Below, piece by piece: positions 1,452 to 27,087 of a stretch of 34,609 bases of DNA (the stretch's first letter is position 1; each line of letters begins with the position of its first letter). The notes below the pieces were generated by a model. It saw only the letters and a list, made by a program, of their open reading frames with translations, was not told the origin of the DNA and searched no databases. The stretch lies in assembly GCF_003170075.1 (NCBI RefSeq), contig NZ_PMZU01000071.1, positions 1-34,609 on the forward strand, read 5' to 3'. Source of the stretch: Methanoregula sp. GTDB taxonomy: Archaea > Halobacteriota > Methanomicrobia > Methanomicrobiales > Methanospirillaceae. A program made the position numbers and the translations under genes.

Positions 1452-1501
1452 GATGGGAATTGTATCGTGATGGTTCCGGCACGTTAACAGGGCAGGGGGG
1501 A

Positions 1502-1522
1502 TTGATTGGGAGGATTACGCCC
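1502..1522. repeat. left copy of the 21-nt direct repeat flanking hicBA
   Basis: The repeat begins TTGATTGGGAGG and ends ATTACGCCC. It matches 2055-2075 in the same orientation at 20 of 22 aligned columns, differing only by a T/TT length change at two places. This copy lies 20 nt beyond the hicA stop and about 85 nt upstream of the MFS start. It may be an insertion scar, an attachment-like site or a shared operator. Confidence 0.6.
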
Positions 1523-1542
1523 ACAAAAGGTGAAACGAAAAA

Positions 1543-1785
1543 TTACCTGAGCAGGACCAGGACTTCAAGCAGTGCCTTAACGTCAATCCCTGCCTGTTTC
1601 AGGATCGCTTTCAGGGTCCCCCGGTCAATCTCCGGATGGTCAGGAACGACAATAGTCCGTGTATCATCCGCGCTTTTCAGAACGATATGGCTTCCCTTCT
1701 GGTGATCGATGTAAAAGCCGAGCCGGAGCAATGCATTGATCAGTTTCCTCGCCGGGAGAAGCGGGAGCTTTTTTGTCCCGGTCAT
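1543..1785 (-). CDS. hicA: HicA-family mRNA interferase toxin (YcfA-like)
   Basis: This 80-residue protein matches the HicA family, small double-stranded-RNA-binding-fold toxins that cleave mRNA. The conserved core reads KLINALLRLGFYIDHQKGSHIVL (split here as KLINALLRLGF and DHQKGSHIVL), and His33 in GSHIVL is the expected catalytic histidine. The VVPDH segment near residue 46 is also family-typical. Its ATG overlaps the stop of hicB by four bases (ATGA at 1782-1785), so the two are translationally coupled, with the antitoxin made first. Order B-A is the reverse of E. coli hicAB but common elsewhere. Length is normal and no disruption is visible, so the toxin is probably intact. Confidence 0.88.
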   Translation of the reverse strand: MTGTKKLPLLPARKLINALLRLGFYIDHQKGSHIVLKSADDTRTIVVPDHPEIDRGTLKAILKQAGIDVKALLEVLVLLR

Positions 1786-2006
1786 ACTTCAACAGCGATT
1801 TCCCGGATACTTACCCGGTTCTGATTGGGGACTTTTCTCTGGTGTTTGATGAGCGATTCAAGGTACGCCTCGATCGCTTCCTTTGCATTCGCTTCCGCTT
1901 CCGCGACCGTTTTTCCCTGCGTGATACAGCCGGGCAGGGCCGGGACGGTTACCACATACCAGCCATCCTCGCCGGGTTCAATGACAACATTGTATTTTTT
2001 CTGCAT
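1782..2006 (-). CDS. hicB: HicB-family antitoxin
   Basis: This 74-residue protein is a short HicB antitoxin. It has the typical partly degraded RNase-H-like core: an N-terminal strand (YNVVIEPGEDGWYVVTVP), the LPGCITQGKT turn around residues 28-37, and a helix AEAEANAKEAIEAYLE. It should bind and neutralise HicA and probably autoregulate the operon. There is no obvious C-terminal helix-turn-helix or ribbon-helix-helix domain, as the remaining tail is only about 20 residues. A TATA-like TTTAATA on the minus strand (about 2046-2052) and a purine-rich stretch before the ATG support this start. The right-hand 21-nt repeat sits directly upstream of that promoter. Confidence 0.87.
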   Translation of the reverse strand: MQKKYNVVIEPGEDGWYVVTVPALPGCITQGKTVAEAEANAKEAIEAYLESLIKHQRKVPNQNRVSIREIAVEV

Positions 2007-2054
2007 CGGCTTCTACCCCTTCACCTTTCATTGGGGGTTCGCAGGTATTAAAGG

Positions 2055-2075
2055 TTGATTTGGGAGGATACGCCC
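2055..2075. repeat. right copy of the 21-nt direct repeat flanking hicBA
   Basis: This is the near-identical partner of 1502-1522, beginning TTGATTTGGGAGG and ending ATACGCCC. It lies 49 nt upstream of the hicB ATG and abuts the hicB TATA-like box. The two copies bracket the whole hicBA module. Confidence 0.6.
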
Positions 2076-2206
2076 GGGAAACGGTGCGGGGTTTTGTACA
2101 GAGGGGGGAACGCTCAAACGGGGCTCCGCCCCCCGGGGTTATCCCCGATTGGATCCGAATCCTTATGCCCTATAAGAAAGGATAATCCGATGAGAATGAG
2201 CAGACC

Positions 2207-2231
2207 GGTTTTTTTTATTTCAAAAAAAACC
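2207..2231. terminator. perfect GGT8/A8CC hairpin before the HIT gene
   Basis: GG followed by eight T (2207-2216), a 5-nt loop ATTTC, then eight A followed by CC (2222-2231) form a perfect 10-bp inverted repeat ending 22 nt before the HIT start codon. A TATA-like CCTATAAG at about 2169-2176 would place this hairpin inside the HIT leader. It could act as an attenuator or T-rich terminator, or it could simply mark low-complexity sequence. The rest of the 2007-2253 gap holds only the repeat and a GC-rich hairpin-prone stretch near 2117-2148. Confidence 0.35.
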
Positions 2232-2253
2232 AACCCGCTGCCGGGAGTAATCC

Positions 2254-2622
2254 ATGAAATGCCCGTTCTGCAATCCACTGGCTGAAGATATTGTCGCAAA
2301 GAACAATCTCTGCTACGCACTCTGGGACCGGTCCCCGGTCAGCAGGGGGCACCTGCTCGTGATCCCGTTCCGGCATACACCGGATTTCTTCTCGCTCTCC
2401 GTTGAGGAGAAACATGCGTTGCTTGCCCTGATTGATACGGGGAAAGGCGTCATCGAGGAAAATTTCCAGCCGGCCGGCTATAACATCGGGACCAACGTGG
2501 GCGAAGCGGGCGGGCAGACCGTGATGCACTGCCATTGCCACGTGATCCCCCGGTATGCCGGGGATGTGCCGGATGCACGGGGCGGGATACGGGGAGTTGT
2601 GCCGTATAAACAAAAATACTAA
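2254..2622 (+). CDS. HIT-family (histidine triad) nucleotide hydrolase or transferase
   Basis: This 122-residue cytoplasmic protein belongs to the histidine triad superfamily, which hydrolyses or transfers nucleotidyl groups on nucleoside phosphoramidates or dinucleoside polyphosphates. The catalytic triad is MHCHCHVIPRY, with His92, His94 and His96. The upstream strand GHLLVIPFRHTPDFFSL and the NIGTNVGEAGGQTV segment are also diagnostic. The N-terminus starts with CPFC, as in many HIT proteins, and could bind zinc with another ligand. Length is normal. It is followed after 68 nt by the shikimate kinase-like gene in the same direction. The true substrate is not predictable. Confidence 0.9.
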   Translation: MKCPFCNPLAEDIVAKNNLCYALWDRSPVSRGHLLVIPFRHTPDFFSLSVEEKHALLALIDTGKGVIEENFQPAGYNIGTNVGEAGGQTVMHCHCHVIPRYAGDVPDARGGIRGVVPYKQKY

Positions 2623-2690
2623 AACTGTAGTGTGAGTACGCGGATGTATCAATCAACGGTTACTATGAATTCCGGGGACGGCAAAACCCC

Positions 2691-3200
2691 ATGAAAAACA
2701 TTATTCTTATCGGCATGCCAGGCGCAGGGAAGAGCACCGTGGGGGTTATCCTTGCAAAAGCGCTCGGCCGGACGTTTATCGATACGGATATCGTGATACA
2801 GGAAAATGCCGGCAGGCTCCTGCAGGAAATTATTGACAGGGAGGGGCCCGACGCTTTCCTGAAAATCGAGGAAAAAACGATACTGTCTCTTCATTGTCAC
2901 AATTCAGTCATTGCCACGGGGGGCAGTGTTGTTTTCTCGCAGAAAGCGATGGAATCCTTAAAAAAGGAAGGCGTGGTCATTTACCTCGCGATCTCCTTTG
3001 AGGAGATGGAAGAGAGGCTCAGGAACATAACGACCCGGGGAATTGTGCTGTTTTCCGGCGAGAGCCTTTCCGATATGTATCACGAGCGGGTCCCGCTGTA
3101 CGAGAAGTATGCCGATATCACGGTCGATTGTTCAAAGGGAGATTTTGAGAAGATTGTCGAAAAAGTGATCGGGGAACTTGACAGAACCGATCGAGAATGA
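2691..3200 (+). CDS. Shikimate kinase-like P-loop kinase (bacterial AroK type)
   Basis: The 169-residue protein has the fold and motif order of bacterial shikimate kinase: Walker A GMPGAGKST (8-16), DTD at 31-33, ATGGS around 75-79, and a C-terminal RVPLYEKYADITVD segment. Shikimate kinase phosphorylates shikimate at O3 in chorismate synthesis. Most archaea use an unrelated GHMP-family shikimate kinase instead, so a bacterial-type enzyme here is notable. Two substrate-binding features are altered: the usual FR of the FRxxE motif is FLKIE (56-60), and the GGG triplet is GGS. It may therefore act on another small hydroxylated substrate. The gene overlaps the start of the downstream PAS remnant. 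Confidence 0.7.
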   Translation: MKNIILIGMPGAGKSTVGVILAKALGRTFIDTDIVIQENAGRLLQEIIDREGPDAFLKIEEKTILSLHCHNSVIATGGSVVFSQKAMESLKKEGVVIYLAISFEEMEERLRNITTRGIVLFSGESLSDMYHERVPLYEKYADITVDCSKGDFEKIVEKVIGELDRTDRE

Positions 3201-3453
3201 TAAAGAATACAACCTTGAATTTGCTATCAATCCCGCAGATGGATCAGATCAAAAAGTGATAATTTCAATCGCCGGGCTGGAAAAGAATGCACAGGGCAAT
3301 ACGATAAGAGTCATTGGTGTAATTCAGGGTTTAAGTCAGGTTGTCAGCAGCTACCGATTTTTGACACTTTTTAGTCAGGAAATCAAATGGATAAAAATCG
3401 CCCAAAAAACGGTTAGAAATCGTATCGGAACAAATAAATCAATGCTACTCTGA
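3178..3453 (+). pseudogene. Remnant of a PAS/PAC sensor domain
   Basis: Read in this frame, the DNA encodes a stretch resembling the C-terminal half of a PAS domain with its PAC motif: NLEFAINPADGSDQKVIIS, then GLEKNAQGNTIRVIGVIQGLSQ. In intact PAS proteins this motif ends in a DITERK-like linker to another PAS or kinase domain. Here it is followed by about 37 unrelated residues and a stop. The front half of the PAS domain is missing and the only start is a TTG inside the preceding gene. I read it as a decayed signal-transduction gene rather than a functional 91-aa protein. The assignment rests on motif similarity by eye. Confidence 0.45.
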
Positions 3454-16353: not shown

Positions 16354-16782
16354 ATGGATAAGATCATAAAAATCATTATCGGACTGTTTGTAATCGTTGC
16401 TATTGCAAGTCTTGCAGTGGTTCTGGTCCAAGGAACCACAGAAAAAGCAGCCACACCATCTGGTGCTACCGTAGTTAATGAAAGCACTGTCTATTTCTTC
16501 TATGGGGAAGAATGTCCGCACTGTAAAAACGTCGAGCCGTTTATCGATAATCTCACAAAAAAATATCCTGATGTCGATATCCGCAGGCTTGAAGTCTGGC
16601 ATAACCAGACGAATCAGCAGATCTACTCAACCGTAAATGCCGGCGCCGGGATCTCATCCCCGTCAGGAGTCCCTGAAGTCGTTATCGGAAAGATCGTGCT
16701 TGTCGGCGAAGTCGAAATCCCCGCGAAACTGGAAGCATACGTGCAGGCTATTGAAAAAAAAAAGCAATCAGTGAATCCCTGA
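16354..16782 (+). CDS. Membrane-anchored extracytoplasmic thioredoxin-like protein
   Basis: This 142-residue protein starts with a lysine-flanked hydrophobic segment (residues 4-26) that should export it and anchor it to the membrane. A thioredoxin fold follows: strand TVYFFYG, active site CPHC at Cys54-Cys57, and the cis-proline strand GVPEVVIG. The start at 16354 is preferred to one at 16291 because it places the membrane segment at the N-terminus. N-glycosylation sequons NES and NQT fit an outside location. It ends in AIEKKKQSVNP encoded over a run of ten A that contains an in-phase A_AAA_AAG heptamer; a -1 shift there would fuse it to the next gene. Confidence 0.82.
   Translation: MDKIIKIIIGLFVIVAIASLAVVLVQGTTEKAATPSGATVVNESTVYFFYGEECPHCKNVEPFIDNLTKKYPDVDIRRLEVWHNQTNQQIYSTVNAGAGISSPSGVPEVVIGKIVLVGEVEIPAKLEAYVQAIEKKKQSVNP
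16754..16763 (+). other. A10 run with in-phase A_AAA_AAG slippery heptamer
   Basis: Ten A are followed by G. In the frame of the upstream thioredoxin gene the last codons are AAA (16756-16758), AAA and AAG (16762-16764), so the heptamer A AAA AAG has the classical -1 slippery phase, as in bacterial dnaX. A weak TCCC/GGGA stem (16776-16779 with 16785-16788) carries the zero-frame TGA in its loop. In the -1 frame there is no stop until 17852. Confidence 0.55.
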
Positions 16783-16805
16783 GTGGGACAACTTCCTCCT
16801 CTTTT

Positions 16806-17852
16806 TTGAACCGGACGGTTACCGGTTATTATTTCTACGGTGACGGATGCAGTCACTGCGAGAGCATAAAACCCTTCGTTACTGATATCGAGTCACGCTA
16901 TTCCTACCTCCAGCTTGAGCAGCTCGAGGTCTATCACAACAGTACAAACCGTGACCGGTTCTTCCAGATAGCCCGGCAGCTGGGCATTGTCTCGCCAGGT
17001 GTGCCCACCATCATCATCGGTAACCACGCGCTCGTAGGAGAAGATGAGATCCGGAATCAGCTGGAGAGTACGATCCGCGGGCAGGAACTGCTGGCAGAAA
17101 ATGCTACGGCAACCGAAGCACAGACGGGCGGGAACGGCACCGTCACGGCGTCCGCGAATTGCCCCGGTACCTTCACGACCCTGACGATTCCTCTGGTTAT
17201 CTTCTGTGCTGCAATCGACAGCATCAACCCCTGTGCATTCTCGGTATTGATCATCCTCCTGCTCTCGATCATCGCGCTCCAGAGCCGCCGGCAGGTGCTG
17301 ATGGTCGGCATCACCTATATCGCAGCGGTGTTCTGTTTGTACTTCCTATCGGGGATTGGCATCCTCTCCTTTGTGCATGTATCGGGGATTTCAAGCCTGA
17401 TCGCAACGGTGGCCGCTGTTATTGCAATCATCCTCGGGCTGGTCAATATTGTCGATGCTGCATGGAAAAAGGAGGGATTCATCCTTGCTATCCCCGAGTC
17501 GAAAAAGCCGGTGATAGAGAGATATATAAAAACAGCAACTCTTCCCGCCGCGTTTGTTCTCGGTGTCCTTGTGGGGATCTTTGAACTGCCCTGCACCGGG
17601 GGGATCTACCTTGCGATCCTCAGTCTGATGAGCAACACCCTGACGCTCTATCAGGGAATCCCTTACCTGCTCCTCTATAACTTCATCTTCATCCTGCCGC
17701 TGATCCTGATCCTGCTTGTGGTCGTTTTCGGCATTCCCCCGGAGCGGGTCAACTCATGGAGACTGGAGAACCGCCGAATGCTCCGGTTCGCGATAGGTCT
17801 TGCGATGATTTTCGTGGGAATAATCATCCTTTTCGGCCTCCGGTTCCTGTAA
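16806..17852 (+). CDS. Thioredoxin-like domain fused to a CcdA-type transmembrane electron carrier
   Basis: Residues 1-85 form a thioredoxin-like domain (YYFYGDGCSHCESIKPF with Cys15 and Cys18, cis-proline GVPTIIIG). A Thr/Asn/Gly-rich linker with NAT and NGT sequons follows, then about six membrane helices with the CcdA cysteine motifs SINPCAF and FELPCTGGIYLAIL. CcdA proteins pass electrons from cytosolic thioredoxin to extracytoplasmic thiols. The only late start is TTG at 16806, with no ribosome-binding site, and it would leave the thioredoxin domain without an export signal. The frame is open upstream to 16755, overlapping the previous gene in the -1 frame. Real translation may be as a fusion of about 499 residues. 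Confidence 0.78.
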   Translation: MNRTVTGYYFYGDGCSHCESIKPFVTDIESRYSYLQLEQLEVYHNSTNRDRFFQIARQLGIVSPGVPTIIIGNHALVGEDEIRNQLESTIRGQELLAENATATEAQTGGNGTVTASANCPGTFTTLTIPLVIFCAAIDSINPCAFSVLIILLLSIIALQSRRQVLMVGITYIAAVFCLYFLSGIGILSFVHVSGISSLIATVAAVIAIILGLVNIVDAAWKKEGFILAIPESKKPVIERYIKTATLPAAFVLGVLVGIFELPCTGGIYLAILSLMSNTLTLYQGIPYLLLYNFIFILPLILILLVVVFGIPPERVNSWRLENRRMLRFAIGLAMIFVGIIILFGLRFL

Positions 17853-19050: not shown

Positions 19051-19656
19051 TTACGTATTTTTGATCTTTTCCAGATCCCGCACGGTCTGCTGCCCCTTTT
19101 CGTACGCTTCTTTTAATGCAGTCGGGTGGTTATTGATCCCGTTGTACGCATCCATGTTATTGGCGACGATATTTTCAGCATAGTCAAACCCCGTGCCGTG
19201 GAAGAAGGCGGTGATCGCCGGAAAGGCACTGTCGAACACGTGTGCCTGGTTCTGCCCGGCGGTTGAGATGAAGACCCCCTTATGTTGCTTGATGTGGTCT
19301 TCGGAAAAGTCCAGTGTTTTAAGGATAAATTTCCGAGCCCAGAGATACTGCGCCCGGTCGATGAACCCTTTGAGCTGGGCAGTAATACCCATACTGTAGA
19401 TGGGAGATGCAACCGCGACGCAGTCCGCGGCAAGGATCCGGTCGTACAGGCCCGGAGCATCGTCTTTTACGACGCATTCACCGGTCTTGTGGCAGGCGTT
19501 ACATCCCCGACAGGGTGAGTAATTGATATCCCTGAGCACCACTTTTTCCACCGTGGCCCCCGCCGCTCTCGCGCCGTCAAGGAAACTGTCGAGGAGCGTC
19601 TCGGTGTTCCCGTGCCGGCGCGGGCTCCCGGATATCCCAAGGACAGTGACGGTCAT
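19051..19656 (-). CDS. Iron-sulfur flavoprotein (Isf) / NADPH-dependent FMN reductase family, copy 1
   Basis: The 201-residue flavodoxin-like protein binds FMN through GISGSPRRHGNTETLL (8-22) and SPIYSMGITAQLKGFIDR. It carries the compact cysteine motif CRGCNAC plus Cys61 (Cys49, 52, 55, 61), which in methanogen Isf proteins ligates a 4Fe-4S cluster. Isf proteins are dimers that accept electrons from ferredoxin and can reduce O2 or H2O2. It overlaps the upstream paralogue by four bases (ATGA at 19653-19656), so the pair is coupled, possibly forming a heterodimer. Residues GVFISTAGQNQAHVFDS and the C-terminal helix match the neighbour closely. Confidence 0.88.
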   Translation of the reverse strand: MTVTVLGISGSPRRHGNTETLLDSFLDGARAAGATVEKVVLRDINYSPCRGCNACHKTGECVVKDDAPGLYDRILAADCVAVASPIYSMGITAQLKGFIDRAQYLWARKFILKTLDFSEDHIKQHKGVFISTAGQNQAHVFDSAFPAITAFFHGTGFDYAENIVANNMDAYNGINNHPTALKEAYEKGQQTVRDLEKIKNT

Positions 19657-20279
19657 TTTCCGGCTCCTGCACTCAGCCGGGCTTTGAGTTCGGTAATGAC
19701 CGCTTTCCCGAGGGCTTCCGCATCTTTTCGGGCCGTCGGGTGGCGTTCGATTGCGCCTTTCTCGTCAACGCCGTTTATCATCAGGTACCGGATGTCGGCA
19801 TCCTTTATGTCGATCACGTGGTAAAAGCACTTGACCGAGGGCACCGCCGCGTCAAAGACATGCAGCCATTTCTGCCCGGCAGTCGCTAGGAACACGCCCA
19901 TGCGTTTCCCTATCCGCTCCGGGGGGACGACCGGCAGTTTGAGAACATATTTCCGGGACCGGAAGACCTGTGCACGGTCCACAAGGGCTTTTACCTGCGA
20001 GGCAAGGCCCATACAAAAGATGGGAGATGAGAGGACGATGCAGTCCGCTTCAACGATCTTATCGTGATATGTGTCCATCCCGTCGCGCTGGATGCACTTG
20101 TTGAGCTTCTCGCATGCGTTGCACCCCCGGCAGGGGTTGATGTTTGCCTCGGTGAGCGGGACCTTCTCGACCGTGACGTCCGGTTCTTCTGCCATGGACG
20201 CGAGCACCCAGTCAAGCAGGGTCTCCGAATTGCCGTGCCGGCGCGGGCTCCCGGCAAACGCGAGGACTTTTACGGGCAT
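19653..20279 (-). CDS. Iron-sulfur flavoprotein (Isf) / FMN reductase family, copy 2
   Basis: The 208-residue protein is a close paralogue of the next gene downstream, with FMN motif AGSPRRHGNSETLL (9-22) and cluster motif CRGCNAC followed by Cys62 (Cys50, 53, 56, 62). The shared order of motifs (SPIFCMGLASQVKALVDRAQ, ATAGQKWLHVFDAAVPS) implies tandem duplication with moderate divergence. It is the first gene of the two-gene unit. A TATA-like GTATATATAC lies at 20371-20380 on a palindromic stretch, predicting a leader of about 65 nt. Function is expected to be electron transfer or oxidative-stress reduction. Confidence 0.88.
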   Translation of the reverse strand: MPVKVLAFAGSPRRHGNSETLLDWVLASMAEEPDVTVEKVPLTEANINPCRGCNACEKLNKCIQRDGMDTYHDKIVEADCIVLSSPIFCMGLASQVKALVDRAQVFRSRKYVLKLPVVPPERIGKRMGVFLATAGQKWLHVFDAAVPSVKCFYHVIDIKDADIRYLMINGVDEKGAIERHPTARKDAEALGKAVITELKARLSAGAGK

Positions 20280-20681: not shown

Positions 20682-21326
20682 TCATACGCTCTTGTAGCAC
20701 AGGTACCAGTCTTTACACTCGTATCCTTCGCTTAAGCGCTTGTCCATCTCGGCTGCGGTCTTTGGCGGCGCCACGACCACCTTGTCGCCCGGCTGCCAGT
20801 TCGCAGGTGTCGACACCTTGTACTTGTCGGTCGTCTGGAGCGCTGTTACCAGCCGGATGATCTCGGGCATAAACCGTCCGTTCTGCAGCGGGTAGTAGAT
20901 CATCGCCCGCATGATACCTTTGTCATCGATGAAGAACACGCACCTGACTGCCGCAGTCGAGCTCTGCGCCGGGTGGATCATGCCGAACTTCTTTGCCACT
21001 TTCATGTTCAGGTCGGCAATGACCGGGAACGGGATAGTGACACCCATCTTCTCCTTGATGTTGCGCACCCAGGCAAGGTGTGCCGATACGCTGTCAACGG
21101 AAAGTCCGATGAGCTTCACATTGAGTGCTGCGAGCTCATCGTGAATCGCGGCAAACGCCATGAATTCCGTTGTACAGACCGGGGTGAAATCGGCGGGGTG
21201 CGAAAACAATACCACCCATTTCCCCTTCAGGTCCGAAAGTTTGATCGGACCCTGTGTGGTCTCCGCTTCGAAGTCCGGCGCAGGCTCTCCCAGCACCGGA
21301 AAACCAGTATCTGCTTCTTCAGTCAT
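20682..21326 (-). CDS. Peroxiredoxin (archaeal Prx6-like)
   Basis: The 214-residue thiol peroxidase reduces H2O2, alkyl hydroperoxides and possibly peroxynitrite. The peroxidatic cysteine is Cys51 in HPADFTPVCTTEF, and the catalytic Arg is in the AVRCVFFID region. Two further cysteines near the C-terminus (Cys204 and Cys210, ECKDWYLC) match archaeal peroxiredoxins in which one acts as resolving cysteine. It is the third gene of the operon desulforedoxin - AhpD-like - peroxiredoxin, 14 nt after the preceding stop. Thioredoxin or the Grx-TrxR fusion at 25936 could regenerate it. Confidence 0.93.
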   Translation of the reverse strand: MTEEADTGFPVLGEPAPDFEAETTQGPIKLSDLKGKWVVLFSHPADFTPVCTTEFMAFAAIHDELAALNVKLIGLSVDSVSAHLAWVRNIKEKMGVTIPFPVIADLNMKVAKKFGMIHPAQSSTAAVRCVFFIDDKGIMRAMIYYPLQNGRFMPEIIRLVTALQTTDKYKVSTPANWQPGDKVVVAPPKTAAEMDKRLSEGYECKDWYLCYKSV

Positions 21327-22982: not shown

Positions 22983-23082
22983 TGAATTGACGCCGGTGTT
23001 CGTCCGCTCCATCCCGTAAAGGAGACCCGGCAGTCCAAAAAAAAATCCAAATCCCCGGGCCATCGGTCTCCGGGCTCGTCGA

Positions 23083-25935: not shown

Positions 25936-27087
25936 ATGAGTATGGTCACGGTATATTCGACAAAAAACTGCCCGTACTGCCGGATGGCAAAGGCGTTTCT
26001 TGAGAAACAGGGCGTTCCCTATACCTCCATCGATGTCGGCGCAGATGATGCTGCTGCGCAGAGGATGATTGCACTCTCGGGCCAGCGCGGTGTACCCGTT
26101 ATCATGGTTGACGATGAGGTCATTGTCGGGTTTGATTCCCAGCGGTTAAACGAACTGTTCGGGACACCTGCGGCAAACGAGCTGTACGATGTCATTATAG
26201 TCGGCGCCGGCCCCGCAGGACTGACTGCGGGTGTGTACTGCGCACGCAAACTCTTAAAAACCCTTATCGTGTCGGAGAATATCGGTGGTCAGGCGCTGGA
26301 GTCGTGGGCGATCGAGAACTACATGGGCTACCGGATGATCACCGGTGAAGACCTGATGAAGAGATTCGAGGAGCAGGTGCATACGCTCGATGTCCGGCTT
26401 GAACTTGTGCGGGTAAGCGGGATCTCGCAGGACGCCGGGCTTTTTGTCGTGACTACTGCGTCCGGGACCCTGCTGAAAGCAAAAAGCCTGATCCTGACGC
26501 AGGGCAAACAACCCCGGAAACTTGGCGTACAGGACGAGGAGAAATACCTTGGGCACGGGCTTTCGATCTGCTCGACCTGCGACGGTCCGCTCTACAAGGA
26601 AAAGAAGGTTGCTATAGTCGGCGGCGGCAACTCTGCGATCCAGACGGCCATCGAAATGAGCGGGATCGCCTCTTCCGTGAACCTGATCGTTCGCAGCACG
26701 ATCAAGGCGGATCCGGTCTATGTCAAAAAAATGGAGGGAATAAAAAATATCATCGTGCACCAGCATTCGCAGATCACAGCGCTTGCCGGCGATCCGTTCC
26801 TCCAGCGGATTACGATAACAACAAAGGGCGGAAGTGACCAGAATCTCGATGTCGACGGGGTGTTCATCGAAGTCGGCTGGACGCCGAACACGGAGATCCT
26901 TGACGGTCTGGTGGAACTTAATGACCGGAGGGAGATCGTGGTGGATGTGGATGGCCGCACGAGCCGGCCCGGGGTCTTTGCCGCCGGCGATGTGACATCG
27001 GTTAAAAGCAAGCAGATCATTATCGCGGCCGGGGACGGGGCAAAGGCGGCATTAGAGGCGTACGAGTACGTGATGAAGCTGACCTGA
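25936..27087 (+). CDS. Glutaredoxin-thioredoxin reductase fusion
   Basis: The 383-residue protein joins an N-terminal glutaredoxin domain (residues 1-78; CPYC at 12-15, cis-proline GVPVIMVDD) to a thioredoxin reductase (84-383). The reductase has FAD motif IIVGAGPAGLTAGVY (87-101), redox pair CSTC (212-215) and second Rossmann motif GGGNSA (229-234). The NADPH 2'-phosphate motif HRRxxxR, expected after the second Rossmann segment, is replaced by VRSTIKADP (252-260). It may use NADH or reduced F420 rather than NADPH; an F420H2-dependent thioredoxin reductase is known in methanogens. The attached glutaredoxin is a built-in electron acceptor that could feed peroxiredoxin. Confidence 0.92.
   Translation: MSMVTVYSTKNCPYCRMAKAFLEKQGVPYTSIDVGADDAAAQRMIALSGQRGVPVIMVDDEVIVGFDSQRLNELFGTPAANELYDVIIVGAGPAGLTAGVYCARKLLKTLIVSENIGGQALESWAIENYMGYRMITGEDLMKRFEEQVHTLDVRLELVRVSGISQDAGLFVVTTASGTLLKAKSLILTQGKQPRKLGVQDEEKYLGHGLSICSTCDGPLYKEKKVAIVGGGNSAIQTAIEMSGIASSVNLIVRSTIKADPVYVKKMEGIKNIIVHQHSQITALAGDPFLQRITITTKGGSDQNLDVDGVFIEVGWTPNTEILDGLVELNDRREIVVDVDGRTSRPGVFAAGDVTSVKSKQIIIAAGDGAKAALEAYEYVMKLT

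Follow-up and report, generated by a model that had tools for sequence, protein, structure and literature searches.

A conserved A-run between a thioredoxin gene and a thioredoxin-CcdA-like gene in Methanoregula: a candidate for recoding in an archaeal chromosome

Introduction

A 2021 review lists a single chromosomal gene of archaea with a reported -1 frameshift and raises the question of further genes (PMC8211752), so frameshifting of this kind is indeed little documented in archaea, as the preliminary description of the present locus had said. Saccharolobus solfataricus fucA1 uses -1 programmed frameshifting (PMC8211752, PMC8037382), and its slip has been shown in vitro at about 10% (PMC8211752). 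For Mg-chelatase genes of Methanocaldococcus and Methanococcus a frameshift at A_AAA_AAR has been predicted (PMC8211752, PMC3711429, PMC5009743), and with A-runs in reporters the efficiency climbs with run length, from 10% at 7 As to 40% at 9 and 63% at 11 (PMC3711429, PMC5009743). The third system of interest is dnaX, where the slip is ribosomal in E. coli and transcriptional, on A9, in Thermus thermophilus.

We describe here a junction between two open reading frames (ORF1 and ORF2) in a 34,609-nucleotide stretch of Methanoregula sp. DNA (contig NZ_PMZU01000071.1; hereafter the window), which comes from a metagenome-assembled genome of 77 contigs and 1.92 Mb. Like fucA1 it is an archaeal chromosomal gene of two ORFs that an A-rich slip site would connect by a -1 shift, but fucA1 has an overlap of 40 bases and a slip demonstrated in vitro, whereas here the slip is predicted from sequence, an A9-A10 run is kept across a genus, and the short product already makes up a whole domain with its anchor. 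The Mg-chelatase genes resemble it in being methanogen genes with an A-run, a -1 direction and a prediction based on conservation; the protein is unrelated, and in the present case the run can be seen to appear and disappear together with the need for it. With dnaX it shares a slip at A_AAA_AAG or A9-A10 and two products, but the stimulators of E. coli dnaX are not seen, and shifting gives the short product in dnaX and would give the long one here, where it would also supply a membrane anchor. The locus is thus a genus-wide candidate for archaeal chromosomal frameshifting with built-in controls. No paper on it was found in the literature searched; the genome sequence of Methanoregula boonei dates from before 2013, so the GeneTack database may list the junction, uncommented.

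The junction and its reading frames

The features of the window that concern us are the following.

16354..16782, + strand: ORF1, N-terminal membrane anchor and thioredoxin domain 1 (CPHC), 142 aa; PF00085 above cut-off
16752..16754, + strand: TGA of the -1 frame immediately 5' of the A-run, so that the ORF overlap begins inside the run
16754..16764, + strand: putative slip site, A10 and G with A_AAA_AAG inside; this position is A9 or A10 in 20/20 genomes
16764..17852, + strand: ORF2, in the -1 frame after the shift; linker, thioredoxin domain 2 (CSHC), linker, CcdA/DsbD-like domain
16806..17163, + strand: thioredoxin domain 2 and linker; fold in the structure model and matches to PDB thioredoxins, Pfam Thioredoxin match weak
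17196..17849, + strand: CcdA/DsbD-like membrane domain, named from its cysteine motifs; invariant NPC (C143) and ELPCTGG (C263)

ORF1 starts at ATG 16354 and stops at TGA 16780-16782, shortly past a run of ten As (16754-16763) that is followed by G. The 0-frame codons at the junction are GAA AAA AAA AAG CAA TCA GTG AAT CCC TGA, with an A_AAA_AAG heptamer in phase at 16758-16764. The -1 frame opens at 16755 and has no stop up to 17852; ORF2, counted from 16764, has 362 aa and its stop codon is 17850-17852, and a -1 shift at A10 gives a product computed at 499 aa. The preliminary description had read the A10-G, the in-phase heptamer, the open -1 frame and the product of about 499 residues correctly in every respect. 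It had also remarked that the downstream gene has only a TTG to start from and no ribosome-binding site, which holds as well: TTG 16806 is the sole ATG, GTG or TTG of ORF2 before its CxxC, and inspection of the pyrimidine-rich stretch upstream of it found no ribosome-binding site.

By itself the heptamer is unremarkable, AAAAAAG having 13 copies on the + strand of the window, but A10G has only 4 copies in the whole 1.92 Mb genome; because it is so rare, and because the conserved run and its arrangement recur in 20 genomes (below), we reject chance occurrence. A second A9 run lies on the + strand of the window at 23037-23045.

Conservation across the genus

Relatives were found by a six-frame search with ORF2, and their junctions were then read. 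The out-of-frame layout is present in 20 genomes of one genus; in all 20 the run is A9 or A10, three lysine codons lie at the run, ORF2 follows in the -1 phase, and ORF1 terminates with a stop codon whose end is 4-19 nt beyond the run. Among these genomes ORF2 identity falls from 94% to 42%, and run lengths, codons and flanks differ from one to another. The comparison with related genomes that the preliminary description had proposed as a check is therefore positive throughout (20/20, always -1, always A9-A10). Five of the 20 are single-contig genomes (G010, G017, G020, G033 and G062), of which G010 and G033 are apparently the cultured species Methanoregula boonei 6A8 and M. formicica SMSP, respectively. 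In fifteen of the 20 loci the -1 frame lacks any ATG, GTG or TTG from the run up to the CxxC of thioredoxin domain 2, whereas the remaining five (the window among them) have one before that motif. In several loci a -1-frame stop stands immediately before the run.

ORF2 proper has dN/dS values of 0.12-0.15 in four close pairs, indicating purifying selection, which rules out a pseudogene; the ratio is well below 1 in ORF1 as well as in ORF2 proper, and the short linker is weakly constrained (a pair with G022, whose ORF2 contains Ns, is unreliable). A slip-prone junction conserved in orthologues and conserved frames under coding selection, two of the marks of a recoded gene, are thus both present.

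We also note that, among twenty runs of A9 or longer sampled in G033, a few lie inside long reading frames. One locus, L118 (G033:C1:1353300-1354900; start region ATGAAAAAAAAA), has two phases open through an A9 run and is a possible further slip site.

The downstream frame lacks an anchor

As a measure of anchoring we used the greatest 17-residue hydrophobicity upstream of thioredoxin domain 2. It is at most 0.65 in 18/18 frameshift loci measured and at least 1.96, an anchor of its own, in all remaining homologues that are complete at the 5' end (a second copy in G012 begins at a contig edge and was left out of this comparison). The claim that the downstream gene by itself carries no export signal is thus upheld in the 18 loci, and given this gap in hydrophobicity ORF2 by itself would form the one branch of the family that lacks such a signal. 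There are seven N-glycosylation sequons, three in ORF1 and four in ORF2, and none in the membrane domain. The sequons had earlier been said to imply that the downstream thioredoxin domain lies outside the cell; all seven are indeed in the thioredoxin domains and linker, and this placement agrees with an outside location and is not proof of it.

The run is lost where it is not needed

Relatives in which no shift would be called for provide natural controls. In single-ORF fusions, where both parts are in frame, the junction run is A7 in G015, A4 in G018 and A4 in G019; where ORF2 starts at its own ATG and carries a membrane anchor (G005, G007 and G021) the ORF1 run is A3, A3 and A8, respectively; and ORF1-type genes without ORF2 have A6 (a paralogue in G033), A6 (G060) and A3 (one in G018). 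An A9-A10 run therefore occurs in 20/20 frameshift loci vs 0/9 controls (Fisher test, 1e-7, without phylogenetic correction and inflated by shared descent among the genomes). Owing to that shared ancestry the 20 genomes amount to far fewer than 20 independent tests, and on the tree there are only three independent pairs, in all three of which run and need agree. Two separate genes, both having their own start and anchor, had been named in advance as the observation that would tell against a frameshift; they do occur in a few relatives, but there the A-run is broken.

Because the layout is conserved, ORF2 has no anchor and the run is missing where it is unneeded, ORF1 and ORF2 are very probably one gene with conserved recoding. 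The first proposal of a programmed -1 frameshift joining two thioredoxin domains to a carrier is to this extent supported, by the layout in 20/20 genomes and the loss of the run in the controls. Transcription and translation would begin at ORF1 (ATG 16354), and most products would end at TGA 16782 as a membrane-anchored thioredoxin domain of 142 aa. In a fraction of events a net -1 shift on A10 would let reading continue to 17852, giving a 499-aa protein in which the anchor is followed by thioredoxin domains 1 and 2 and then by the CcdA/DsbD-like electron carrier. The ORF1 anchor would thereby bring thioredoxin 2 to the outside of the cell, as suits the membrane carrier. Both the production of the fusion and its amount are inferred from these sequences. 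Gene-calling programs will cut such a protein in two or give ORF2 a wrong start codon.

Polymerase or ribosome

The shift could be the work of either of two machines, and we slightly favour the addition of one A by RNA polymerase over a -1 slip of the ribosome. In programmed transcriptional slippage the polymerase would add or drop As on the A9-A10 run, so that some mRNAs carry ORF1 and ORF2 in one frame; we give this nearly an even chance. Its main argument is that the feature kept appears to be a run length of 9 or more and not the heptamer. At NNA AAA AAA AAG sites the preceding A, which is needed to reach 9, is present in 14/14, and at AAA AAA AAA sites, where it is not needed for 9, in 1/6 (Fisher test between the two types, 4e-4, uncorrected); several of the NNA sites use TTA for it, a rare leucine codon (38/854 Leu codons in the window). 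A homopolymer of about 9 or more thus seems to be held by selection. A tRNA-Lys(CUU), which reads AAG, is present in the window genome, G010 and G033, and A_AAA_AAG should for that reason slip less readily than it does in E. coli. A10 runs are regarded as transcriptional slip sites in dnaX (PMC3711429). On the other hand, all 20 loci are -1, while genes with transcriptional slippage often show both directions (PMC3711429), and in the literature searched no paper shows RNA slippage on A-runs for a polymerase from an archaeon.

Programmed -1 ribosomal frameshifting on A_AAA_AAG or A_AAA_AAA, as in bacterial dnaX and archaeal fucA1, is a serious contender that we hold a little less probable. An A_AAA_AAR is in phase in 20/20 loci, the uniform -1 direction (20/20) is taken as a mark of ribosomal shifting (PMC3711429), and the same motif was proposed earlier for the archaeal Mg-chelatase genes (PMC3711429, PMC5009743). 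The heptamer is however not independent evidence, since every A9 run holds an in-phase A_AAA_AAA, and it is itself divided between A_AAA_AAG (14 sites) and A_AAA_AAA (6 sites). Nor are stimulators of the dnaX type conserved: no conserved RNA structure was found in the 70 nt downstream (z-scores -2.5 to 1.7), where a stem-loop would be expected, and no conserved upstream Shine-Dalgarno-like element by inspection, an absence that suits slippage of the polymerase. The preliminary description had called the heptamer a dnaX-type slippery motif; it is present and in phase, but a ribosomal mechanism is not thereby established and transcript slippage fits as well.

Polymerase and ribosome may also both act. 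Put in full, the polymerase reading is that selection has kept the A9-A10 run as a place where the RNA polymerase of these archaea slips, and so sets the ratio of the short anchored thioredoxin to the long two-thioredoxin carrier, through the history of the genus, a tentative proposal that falls just short of an even chance. If true, it would make this chromosomal gene an archaeal example of programmed transcriptional slippage, and the locus in any event allows an archaeal test of polymerase vs ribosome action at an A-run.

Alternatives to recoding

The best surviving alternative is that these are two ordinary genes, ORF2 being translated separately by re-initiation after the ORF1 stop, at TTG 16806 or at a non-AUG codon (a CTG overlaps the TGA). 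In every genome the ORF1 stop falls close to the region where ORF2 would start, a stop codon that overlaps a start would likewise yield a -1 phase, and there is a GTGA overlap in G024 and an ATG in G017 and G020. But a conventional start is absent in 15/20 loci, the separate ORF2 protein would have neither anchor nor signal, unlike all other homologues, and both the kept A-run and its loss in the nine controls would go unexplained; we consider re-initiation unlikely, with a small probability left on sequence grounds for internal initiation at a non-AUG codon. Phase variation, in which replication slippage in the run turns ORF2 on and off between cells, is very unlikely: the mutability of A9-A10 runs and the outward-facing product would fit that idea, but all 20 genomes are in one and the same -1 state and an in-frame run of 9 or more was found in none of them, where one third would be expected if the states were free. 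The main alternative in the preliminary description, a sequencing or assembly error in the homopolymer or natural variation of the A-run through a recent frameshift mutation, is scarcely credible and as a general explanation refuted, for although the window comes from a 77-contig metagenome-assembled genome and homopolymers are error-prone, the -1 layout stands in 20 genomes, five of them single-contig, with varied run lengths, codons and flanks.

Protein domains

The ORF1 thioredoxin domain scores 26.1 bits with PF00085 (cut-off 23.5). Thioredoxin domain 2 has an invariant C15 and C18 and a weak Pfam Thioredoxin match; its model has the helix/strand pattern of the thioredoxin fold, and its best PDB matches are thioredoxins with weak E-values, so that a CxxC in a thioredoxin fold, as in other oxidoreductases of this kind, is present. 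A sequence search found no solved relative of ORF2 at E 0.01, and a profile search with ORF2 for solved structures returned thioredoxins only, weakly.

In the membrane domain C143 (DSINPC) and C263 (ELPCTGG) are invariant in ten homologues, giving paired cysteines in transmembrane helices 1 and 4 as in CcdA/DsbD. Each half of the domain has one conserved Cys-Pro pair (NPC and ELPC), as in CcdA/DsbD carriers, and its sequence match to CcdA families is weak. DsbD_2 is matched in 1/10 homologues, and a fold search with the membrane domain alone gave no credible match (model mean pLDDT 77, built from ten sequences). The putative assignment as a CcdA electron carrier therefore stands on its cysteine motifs, which make the domain CcdA/DsbD-like. 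We note separately that the Pfam SfLAP (sulfolipid-1-addressing protein) profile matches the domain in 10/10 homologues, better than any CcdA/DsbD model does, and is below cut-off in the window.

In known CcdA/DsbD-thioredoxin fusions a CxxC thioredoxin domain is likewise combined with a multi-helix membrane domain; the difference is that here there are two tandem thioredoxin domains, the first reachable only through recoding. By analogy, the long protein would pass electrons across the membrane to its two outer thioredoxin domains, and the ORF1-only product would be a spare, free-standing thioredoxin domain.

Locus and history

The gene order in the genus is argB, ORF1, ORF2, aroQ (opposite strand), M50 peptidase, and in the nearest genus it is argB, a Trx-CcdA gene with its own anchor, aroQ. 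On a maximum-likelihood tree of ORF2 the three states (frameshift, in-frame fusion, own start) must have changed at least five times, and the frameshift state is spread over the genus clade from the base, which fits an old, mostly retained state. On the simplest reading of the tree, an anchored thioredoxin domain would have arrived upstream of ORF2, whose own anchor was lost, and a slip site would have joined the two ever since; in a few lineages an in-frame fusion would later have formed or ORF2 regained an anchor.

Several relatives have other arrangements. In L067 (G060:C16, 1278-1712) an ORF1-type thioredoxin gene stands alone between argB and aroQ, ORF2 being lost and the run A6. At the same argB locus in G018 (L055, G018:C43, about 1455-3362, - strand of the locus) there is an in-frame ORF of 636 codons with three thioredoxin-like CxxC domains followed by a CcdA-like domain. 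In L033 (G034:C2) a CcdA-like domain follows directly on an anchor and thioredoxin N-terminus that resemble those of ORF1 (MDKTIKI...), possibly through a recombination that removed one thioredoxin domain.

By eye, the window also holds redox-looking neighbours at 19051-20279, 20682-21326 and 25936-27087: they comprise two genes resembling flavodoxin-fold reductases, one resembling a peroxiredoxin, and a glutaredoxin-like N-terminus on a longer protein.
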